Origin: an uncultured bacterium
Lineage (GTDB): Bacteria > Elusimicrobiota > Elusimicrobia > Elusimicrobiales > Elusimicrobiaceae
Direction: 5' to 3'
DNA: 64,000 bases
Assembly: GCA_949296525.1 (NCBI GenBank)
Contig: CASFOP010000006.1
Location: 1 to 64,000 of the forward strand
The notes under the pieces are model-generated. The model made no database searches, had not been told where the DNA came from, and saw nothing but the letters and a program-made list of their open reading frames with translations. Both the position numbers and the translations under genes were made by a program. Below, one piece after another: positions 51,092-53,399 of the stretch (its first letter is position 1; each line of letters starts with the position of its first letter).

Positions 51092-51178
51092 GGTTAGCAA
51101 AGCGTACAAAATCAAAAAGCAAAGCTTTCCGCTTGTTAAAGCGCTCTCATCTCTCTTTTTATTTTGACGCTTTGCTAA
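51092..51178. repeat. Inverted operator-like repeat pair
   Basis: GTTAGCAAAGCGT (51092-51104) and its exact mirror ACGCTTTGCTAAC (51166-51178), 61 nt apart; the similarity continues outward into AAAAT and AAAAAG with single-base gaps. Related GTTAGCATAG and TTGTTAG copies lie at 51370-51393. They flank divergent transcription toward 51078 and toward the regulator gene, as expected for operators of that regulator. Confidence 0.5.
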
Positions 51179-51199
51179 CTCAAGTTACTCTTTATTTGC

Positions 51200-51450: not shown

Positions 51451-52155
51451 ATGAATAAATTTGAAAAACAGCTGGAAAAATGGAATCACGGCGTGCTGCG
51501 CGGCGCACAAGCCCGGTTAGCAAAAACATTAGGCGTCTCCACGGCTACCGCTGCATTATGGGCTACCGGCAAGCGCAACCCCTCCAAAGGATACGTGGCC
51601 CAAATGGCCCAATTGTTCAACATGGACGCATTGGACGTATACAAACTCTTTGCTCCCCGTTCCGTTATTTATCCAGAGATCCCTGCCCGCCCGACGGCAC
51701 GCACCTTGCGGGAAAAACAAGGGGCCGATTGTTCTTATCAAGCCTCCGGACGCATCTCCCCCCAAGGCAAGCCCGAACCGGAACAGACCAACAGCGTCTT
51801 ACTCCCTTTCCTAAATACGATACCGGACGCCTCAGGACAATACGCAGAAGCAGATGTGCTGGAGTGGTGGAGCGTCCCGCGCAGGTTTGCACGCGGGGCC
51901 AAATACCTGTTGCGTGCCGATGACGCGGGGCTAAACGGGGTCTCCCAAGAGGATCTCTGCTTCGTCAAACCGGGAAAAGATATGCCTGAAGGAAAACTTC
52001 TTCTTTTCCGTACTTCCGCAGGGCAATGCCTCTGCCGCCGGGTGAAATACAAAAACGGGATACCCGTTTTTTTCCGCCCCGGAAACAAAAGGGGCGACAC
52101 GCAACCTCCCGGAGAACCCATCGGAGAGATTTTACATTTGGTCAGTTGCTTATAA
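51451..52155 (+). CDS. CI/LexA-like transcriptional regulator without the protease dyad
   Basis: Protein of 234 residues. N-terminal helix-turn-helix (about 13-62, RLAKTLGVSTATAALWATGK), a Pro/Ser-rich linker, then a C-terminal S24/LexA-like fold (about 140-234): KYLLRADDAGLNG, EDLCFVKPG, EGKLLLFRTSAG, CLCRRVKYKNGIPVFF, EPIGEILHL. In active S24 proteins the first motif is GDSM and the later one has a catalytic Lys; here they are ADDA and CRRV, so self-cleavage is not expected. Start ATG 51451 follows AGGAGA. Phage-type repressor ancestry is likely, but no phage genes surround it. Confidence 0.75.
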   Translation: MNKFEKQLEKWNHGVLRGAQARLAKTLGVSTATAALWATGKRNPSKGYVAQMAQLFNMDALDVYKLFAPRSVIYPEIPARPTARTLREKQGADCSYQASGRISPQGKPEPEQTNSVLLPFLNTIPDASGQYAEADVLEWWSVPRRFARGAKYLLRADDAGLNGVSQEDLCFVKPGKDMPEGKLLLFRTSAGQCLCRRVKYKNGIPVFFRPGNKRGDTQPPGEPIGEILHLVSCL

Positions 52156-52159
52156 ACCC

Positions 52160-52187
52160 TTGTTTTTTTATGAAAAATCTTTATACT
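52160..52187 (+). promoter_or_regulatory. Promoter of the 400-nt RNA
   Basis: TTGTTT (52160-52165), a 16-nt spacer, TATACT (52182-52187). It starts right after the regulator stop codon. Confidence 0.55.
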
Positions 52188-52192
52188 TATAG

Positions 52193-52598
52193 TATCCCCG
52201 GAGAAGGGTTCCGGGATATGCGGGACAGAAAATTTGCGTTTCCTTCCAGCTTTGCCCGGTGATGCAGGGCGGTTTGGGGCGCATAAAACTGGTCGGGCCG
52301 CGCCGGCAAGATACCGTGAAGAGCGGTGAAGCGTAAGTACGCGGCTTTGAAGCAGAAAAGAAGTGCTCTTTGATAGTTGCAGAGTTTTTTTGGCGGCAGC
52401 CTGATGCGGTGCGCACGCTTTGGCCGTATTCTCGGGAAGGGAATACAACAAGGCCGGAGAACGGACCGCGGCCCGCGGACTTTGCCGGAGCATGTCACTG
52501 CCCCGTGATCTTACGAACCAGCCCCTTCGGGGAAGGAAAAAAAATGAACGAGTGCACCTAGAGTCCTTCGTATTTACGCAATACGAAGGGCTCTTTTT
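52193..52598 (+). ncRNA. Putative structured RNA of about 400 nt, family unknown
   Basis: Own promoter and terminator and no credible ORF. Visible helices: a 5' hairpin (about 52193-52218, loop exposing GAAGGG), CCAG...CTGG closing GCCC/GGGC, ACCG/CGGT, GCGTA-AG-TACGC (52331-52342), GGCCGTATTC with GAATAC...GGCC (52422-52455), CCGCG-GCC-CGCGG (52466-52478), TCAC-TGCCCC-GTGA (52495-52508), a UUCG tetraloop hairpin (52523-52532), and a long-range pair GCCGGCAAG with CTTTGCCGG. It lacks the RNase P core (GAAAGTCC) and any tRNA-like end, so it is neither RNase P RNA nor tmRNA. A five-codon frame after AAGGA lies just before the terminator. Confidence 0.5.
52561..52598 (+). terminator. Terminator of the 400-nt RNA
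   Basis: GAG-TCCTTCGTATT and AATACGAAGGG-CTC around TACGC, then six T. One of the strongest terminators in the window. Confidence 0.9.
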
Positions 52599-52706
52599 TG
52601 TGCCAGCAGACGGCGACGCATTACCTTTTTTGTTTCTCCGACGAGATATTTACCATATAAAAATTGAGGATTTAAGTAAATTTTGATATAATATGTCAAG
52701 GATTTT

Positions 52707-53399
52707 ATGAACGCGGCAGACAGAATAGAGCAAAATTTGTGCAGCGTAGAGGAGGCCATTTCCGCCGCCTGCCGCCGCAGCGGACGCCCCGAAAAGGACG
52801 TAACGCTCATGGCCGTTACCAAATACGCCGCCGATGAGGATGTACTAACCCTGCTGAATACGGGCCATGTACGCCACATAGGCGAAAGCCGTGTACAGCA
52901 AGCCGTTGCCCGTTGGACATCTCCCCGCTTTGCAGCCTATGACACAGTCAAACACTTTATCGGGCATTTGCAAAGGAACAAAGCGGCCCAAGCCGCCAAA
53001 TTATTTGACTTTATTGATTCCATAGACGATATCCGCACCGCGCAAGCATTAAACGAACAAGCCCTGATCCTCAACAAGGTCCTGTATGTCATGGTGCAGA
53101 TAAAACTGACGGACAAAGACACCCAGTCCGGCGTAAAGCTGGCAGAGGCGCCGCAGTTGGTGCGGCAGTTGCAGGAGTTTAAACAGCTGCGTCCCTGCGG
53201 ATACATGGCCATTGCCCCGCAGACGGACGACCCGCAGACGCTGCGTCCGTTGTTTAAAGAAGTAAAAACCGCTTTTGAGAGGGATTTTCCCCCTGCTCTG
53301 CCTCAAAGGTATTTGTCTTTGGGCATGAGCGCAGATTTTGAAACGGCCGTGGAAGAAGGGTCCACGCTGCCGAGGGTTGGAAGTAAATTGTTTTCCTGA
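52707..53399 (+). CDS. yggS: YggS-family PLP homeostasis protein
   Basis: Protein of 230 residues with the alanine-racemase N-terminal barrel only. PLP lysine Lys39 in LMAVTKYAADED; HIGESRVQQAVAR, FIGHLQRNKAAQAA and LSLGMSADFETAVEEGST match the family. It binds PLP and influences amino-acid and PLP balance; no enzymatic reaction is known. TATAAT about 14 nt before the ATG gives a very short leader with AAGGA. The partner DUF167 gene follows 14 nt downstream, a common yggS-yggU pairing. Confidence 0.92.
   Translation: MNAADRIEQNLCSVEEAISAACRRSGRPEKDVTLMAVTKYAADEDVLTLLNTGHVRHIGESRVQQAVARWTSPRFAAYDTVKHFIGHLQRNKAAQAAKLFDFIDSIDDIRTAQALNEQALILNKVLYVMVQIKLTDKDTQSGVKLAEAPQLVRQLQEFKQLRPCGYMAIAPQTDDPQTLRPLFKEVKTAFERDFPPALPQRYLSLGMSADFETAVEEGSTLPRVGSKLFS

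Follow-up and report, generated by a model that had tools for sequence, protein, structure and literature searches.

Large, ornate bacterial RNAs such as OLE, GOLLD, ROOL, the raiA motif and HEARO have been found through covariation, and their functions are absent or poorly known (PMC12286853; PMC9723947). An RNA gene in the window (the whole stretch of 64,000 nucleotides analyzed here) is comparable to these RNAs in being large, highly folded and found by covariation, but differs in having no Rfam match and in lying in neither a phage nor a tRNA-array setting. To our knowledge, no start-stop mini-ORF has been described in the tails of OLE, GOLLD, ROOL, the raiA motif or HEARO.

Very short ORFs used by the ribosome are familiar from tmRNA, a folded RNA of similar size; the window RNA differs in lacking a tRNA-like domain, in having an ORF with its own ATG and in the absence of a conserved tag peptide. 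Dual-function small RNAs of the SgrS type also carry a small ORF, which encodes a functional small protein longer than the window peptide. By contrast, the latter comprises 5–6 residues and is not conserved, thereby failing the criterion for a conserved small protein. Closer in form are minigenes in which a few codons behind a ribosome-binding site are used independently of the encoded peptide. The lambda bar start-stop minigene is of this kind. So are the start-stop minigenes of the LEE4 leader and axe-txe, whose use does not depend on the peptide (PMC8708949). Leader minigenes act in cis on the downstream gene, whereas the minigene of the window RNA makes up the 3′ tail of a structured RNA that is an independent gene, and a terminator comes immediately after it.

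Locus and Transcription Signals

The window derives from a genome of 1.54 Mb (94% complete) with relatives among Elusimicrobiales bacteria and Candidatus Avelusimicrobium, gut Elusimicrobiota. The features of the RNA gene are collected in Table 1. Its transcription is inferred from these signals, with a putative start near 52194. The earlier note had proposed a good promoter and one of the strongest terminators of the window. Both promoter elements are indeed present, and the homologues have a TTG...TATACT promoter at the corresponding position, even in one genome without the regulator gene (G070), but the −35 element retains only three of six consensus bases and is weak, which is why the promoter is absent from the promoter scan list. 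The terminator is present too, its stem being the longest among 19 candidates in a scan of 50–55 kb.

Table 1. Features of the RNA gene and the adjoining regulator gene (window coordinates)
Feature	Position	Strand	Remarks
XRE-type regulator gene	51451..52155	+	neighbors the RNA in most genomes without belonging to it; HTH_3 E = 1.3e-4, just under Pfam cut-off
Promoter	52160..52187	+	−35 TTGTTT 52160-52165, 16-nt spacer, −10 TATACT 52182-52187
RNA gene as a whole	52182-52600	+	
Folded RNA body	52195..52541	+	z = −4.4; compensatory changes in 32/97 pairs in the window's subgroup
P1 5′ strand (UCCCCGGAG)	52195..52203	+	
First CAGAAAA motif	52226..52232	+	its CAG pairs with a CUG close to the body's 3′ end; no variation across the subgroup alignment
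Second CAGAAAA motif	52353..52359	+	CAG pairs with CUG of AAACUGGUC
Equivalent of the R1 core domain	52407..52468	+	common to all subgroups; window position assigned by alignment
P1 3′ strand (CUUCGGGGA)	52525..52533	+	directly before the tail
Shine-Dalgarno-like AAGGA	52533..52537	+	6 nt before the ATG
Start-stop mini-ORF ATG AAC GAG TGC ACC TAG (MNECT*)	52544..52561	+	in 62/63 homologues
Intrinsic terminator	52560..52600	+	15-pair stem 52560-52594 plus U-run; stem begins inside the stop codon

Two inverted repeats were observed around the regulator gene. A long one (GTTAGCAAAGCG ... CGCTTTGCTAAC, 51092–51180) lies upstream of it, and one of the type TTGTTTTT-N5-AAAAACAA lies between the −35 and −10 elements (52160–52181) in several promoters of the window's subgroup. 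The latter was considered as a possible operator and set aside, being clear in part of the window's subgroup and weak elsewhere.

Distribution across the Genus

Homologues of the RNA were identified in 63 of 66 Avelusimicrobium genomes, each with its own promoter, a folded body of 330–440 nt and, as a rule, a terminator. A DNA search matched 15 of 61 genomes including its own, three of them through the promoter only. Reading the DNA downstream of the regulator gene genome by genome uncovered diverged copies in the others too; 61 genomes in all have the RNA downstream of the regulator, and a core model added G003 and G070. The copies were sorted into subgroups A (that of the window), B, C, D and E. 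Core model R1 was built without subgroup A; that it nevertheless locates five members of A correctly (per-genome E 3.1e-7 to 1.5e-4) links the subgroups to one another. The strongly diverged copies of G027 and G003 (L013 and L199) keep the position of helix P1 (10 pairs), the core domain and a five-codon mini-ORF (MNIEN*, MRIEK*). The RNA was not seen in G022 (89% complete) or G036 (83% complete). Genome G071 (95% complete) retains the regulator, and a short spacer before yggS replaces the RNA (locus L202); from this arrangement it looks like a natural deletion.

Beyond the genus, the core model retrieved no homologue from 275 other Elusimicrobiota genomes, among them members of further genera in the family, under strict filters that very diverged copies could escape. 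In a pattern scan of genome contigs, all hits with the full arrangement came from Elusimicrobiota-type or unnamed gut records; the remaining hits, from many phyla, lacked the core and appeared to be due to chance. An origin in mobile elements was rejected, with no matches in phages or plasmids and no true match in viral contigs. A literature search on noncoding RNA in these bacteria retrieved papers that, judged by titles and abstracts, deal with other subjects.

Fold and Covariation of the RNA Body

The 409 nt of the plus strand fold with a predicted energy of −167.7 kcal/mol, lower than any of 100 shuffles, and the reverse strand of the region reaches z = −2.3 against its shuffles. Covariation in relatives, which the earlier note had named as a check on its proposal of an undescribed RNA, is strong. 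An alignment of subgroup C places 93.5% of cells in standard pairs, with compensatory changes in 43 of 94 pairs; sliding the structure by 1–3 columns leaves 39–46% paired and 9–14 compensatory pairs. The corresponding alignment of the window's subgroup A is 93.1% paired, and its compensatory pairs (Table 1) compare with 9–16 for the slid structure, of which 37–42% is paired. For a 39-sequence core common to the other subgroups, the values are 93.4% and 15 of 20 pairs against 42–53% and 4–9 pairs. None of 500 shuffles matched the observed pairing percentage or covariation score in subgroup A, subgroup C or the core. Since the structures were derived from the same alignments, the test is biased toward them; the excess nonetheless remains large. 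Subgroup A is marked by two CAGAAAA motifs, both with CAG:CUG pairing.

Helix P1 joins the 5′-terminal nucleotides of the RNA to those immediately preceding the tail, its end usually lying about 10–12 nt before the ATG. Its energy averages −17.1 kcal/mol with its own partners, −11.8 with partners from other genomes and −8.8 with shuffled ones, and the native pairing beats the swapped-partner median in 59 of 62 cases. The UUCG hairpin (~52523–52532) pointed out in the earlier note, which overlaps bases of P1's 3′ strand, lacks conservation; relatives pair this strand with the 5′ end instead. The P1 5′ strand has an alternative partner of its own in a local hairpin (52197–52201 with 52211–52215), for which 98% of cells are paired in the ten-sequence alignment of subgroup A, compared with 79% for P1. 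As both helices compete for the same strand, two exclusive states are possible in subgroup A. Another candidate pairing, UUUCCUUCC (52238–52246) as an anti-Shine-Dalgarno element, is complementary to GGAAGGAAA in the window, is not conserved and was dismissed.

A Start-Stop Mini-ORF in the Tail

The statement of the earlier note that neither strand holds an ORF with family features passed over the five-codon mini-ORF in the tail, which is conserved across the genus. It satisfies the definition of a start-stop minigene, namely an ATG, few codons and an in-frame stop, conserved as such. The order of elements in the tail is P1, a purine-rich and mostly unpaired stretch, the ATG, 4–5 sense codons, the stop and the terminator, the stem of which begins inside the stop codon in most genomes. 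A mini-ORF was accepted in 62 of 63 homologues, whereas shuffled tails, granted positional freedom similar to that allowed in the scan, predict about 1.4. The exception is L089 (G030), where no clear mini-ORF occupies the usual place; tail and terminator appear to have been rebuilt, and the script hit there seems spurious. A good Shine-Dalgarno match is confined to subgroup A, the match in the other subgroups being weak; in all 62 cases, the stretch from this element through the ORF has a lower predicted degree of pairing than the body.

The 62 cases are linked by shared ancestry and are thus not independent. In view of this ancestry, the stronger argument from the sequences lies in the use of three stop types and in length differences of whole codons: among all 63 script hits, with the doubtful G030 included, TGA (27), TAG (23) and TAA (13) all serve as stops, and the ORFs comprise 5 codons (27) or 6 codons (36). 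These hits represent 44 distinct DNA sequences and 37 peptides (36 without G030). Codon changes along minimum spanning trees amount to 72 nonsynonymous versus 12 synonymous, and the peptide is therefore not conserved. The second codon is mostly GAA, AAA or AAY, and the last codon varies (ACC, AAA, AGA, AAC and others). On the strength of these comparisons, the mini-ORF is very probably a selected feature, its translation being inferred. Palindromes within the mini-ORF (GUGCAC, GUCGAC) were considered as a dimerization site and discarded, occurring in many but not all homologues, unlike the ORF itself.

Proposed Mechanism and Alternatives

Comparison establishes the family, its independent gene, its closed fold and the mini-ORF, whereas transcription, translation of the mini-ORF, action in trans and coupling to translation are inferred. 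In the transcript of 330–440 nt, P1 closes the body by joining the 5′ end to the sequence before the tail, and the tail, bounded by P1 and the terminator, carries a start-stop mini-ORF of 5–6 codons behind a ribosome-binding site predicted to be accessible. Selection would maintain the start and stop of a ribosome on the tail, not a peptide. A ribosome caught there, wedged between P1 and the terminator hairpin, would couple the fold or lifetime of the RNA to ongoing translation, and the body would most likely act in trans by binding a protein, the ribosome or another RNA. A ribosome initiating at 52544 would extend to P1 on one side and to the terminator stem on the other, and its loading should therefore compete with both; this competition makes a switch or timer coupled to translation the most economical reading. 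With no expression or ribosome data at hand, our confidence that the tail of this structured RNA captures a ribosome and thereby couples fold or lifetime to translation is evenly balanced. A more specific version is only tentatively put forward: a free-standing RNA device switched by translating itself, in which a ribosome on an arbitrary tail of 5–6 codons would open or close the RNA (P1 versus the local hairpin), report the capacity for translation initiation and relay it in trans.

The main rival to a translation-coupled switch is shielding of the tail, whereby a structured RNA acts in trans and the mini-ORF merely parks ribosomes that protect the unpaired, A-rich tail from RNase, with translation having no regulatory part. 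As a precedent, the LEE4 leader of E. coli contains a minigene of six codons that is reported to stabilize its mRNA through ribosome binding to the Shine-Dalgarno sequence without a need for translation (PMC8708949). The tail of the window RNA is A-rich and predicted to be open. Shielding by Shine-Dalgarno binding alone, however, leaves unexplained why 62 of 63 homologues keep an in-frame stop after 5–6 codons, with each of the three types in use; we regard it as possible, though rather unlikely.

The retained length of 5–6 codons could also point to the minigene as the effector: its fast translation would release peptidyl-tRNA, drain or mark particular tRNAs and slow translation, with the body setting the dose. 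Short ORFs can be toxic through peptidyl-tRNA drop-off, but two-codon minigenes are the most toxic (PMC8708949). Moreover, the last codon of the mini-ORF is not fixed, and hence no single tRNA is targeted, and such an effector has no need for a conserved body of >300 nt. We consider this reading improbable.

Neighboring Genes and Independence of the RNA Gene

Of the 63 genomes with the RNA, 61 or 62 have it beside the regulator gene. It could thus be a cis-acting element, either the 3′ UTR of the regulator mRNA or a leader or attenuator of the downstream gene; read-through from the regulator gene is possible, and a ribosome on the mini-ORF would interfere with the terminator. However, all homologues keep the RNA's own promoter, and the association with the regulator is broken in both directions: in G070, a genome in which no homologue of the regulator was detected, the RNA with its promoter lies behind an unrelated gene, whereas G071 has the regulator without the RNA. 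The downstream genes, named by reading their translations, vary by subgroup (YggS type, a small DksA-like protein, a GTPase, an ABC transporter, a pilin-like protein), and about half lie on the opposite strand; in the window, a YggS-type gene (alanine racemase N-terminal domain) begins at 52707. The conserved co-directional downstream gene expected of a cis-regulatory leader or riboswitch is therefore missing. Together with G070, the variable downstream genes show that the RNA is not a leader and is more than a 3′ UTR of the regulator, and a role in cis is quite unlikely. Adding the absence of the RNA from G071, these comparisons of gene order establish it as an independent, dispensable gene; since G071 lost the RNA and G030 a recognizable mini-ORF from the usual place, neither is indispensable.

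The regulator may control the RNA promoter. Its HTH part is nearly invariant across the genus, and its C-terminal part diverges. The latter is S24/LexA-like. Its GDSM and KR residues, a typical feature of self-cleaving repressors, occur in subgroups C and D; G009 and G027 retain them, and the window copy has lost them. A paralogue of the regulator in the window genome is followed by protein genes and no RNA. Searches of the sister genera in the family turned up nothing closer than distant repressors, and the single best match has no RNA after it.

Known RNA Families

No Rfam 15 family matches the window region at gathering score, and eight loci of other subgroups have no match at E up to 1. 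The earlier note had pointed out that the size is that of RNase P RNA or tmRNA and ruled out both for want of their diagnostic cores, a conclusion confirmed by the genome's own copies on other contigs. RNase P RNA is encoded at G000:C14:24427-24762, and the window region has no RF00010 match; tmRNA (RF00023) is encoded at G000:C5:60043-60387, and ARAGORN finds none in the window. SRP RNA was rejected as well, since neither the small (RF00169) nor the large (RF01854) bacterial model matches the region at E up to 10 or the other-subgroup loci at E up to 1. These two models find no SRP RNA anywhere in the 94% complete window genome (G000), although it is detected in most control genomes; the gene either lies in the missing part of the genome or has diverged in the genus. 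Finally, 6S RNA was discarded for lack of a match to RF00013 in the region, and this model finds none in 41 Elusimicrobiales genomes.

The models for SRP RNA and 6S RNA find no copy in the window genome, which leaves a strongly diverged version of one of these or another housekeeping RNA conceivable. This is very improbable given the lack of SRP and 6S matches at these thresholds, the branched fold of about 400 nt and the absence of the RNA from its place in the 95% complete G071, where an SRP RNA should be essential. The ordinary explanations tested do not fit. With no Rfam match and with covariation in relatives, the suggestion of an undescribed RNA is upheld, and, even without expression data, the window RNA almost certainly represents a new structured RNA family.

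Significance

The RNA constitutes a new family that extends across a genus of animal-gut bacteria. For its architecture of a closed RNA body, a start-stop mini-ORF and a terminator, no precedent was found. RNAs taken to be noncoding need to be checked for ORFs far below annotation limits. If the tail of this RNA does capture a ribosome, the gene would illustrate with unusual clarity how selection can favor that an RNA is translated, irrespective of what the translation yields.
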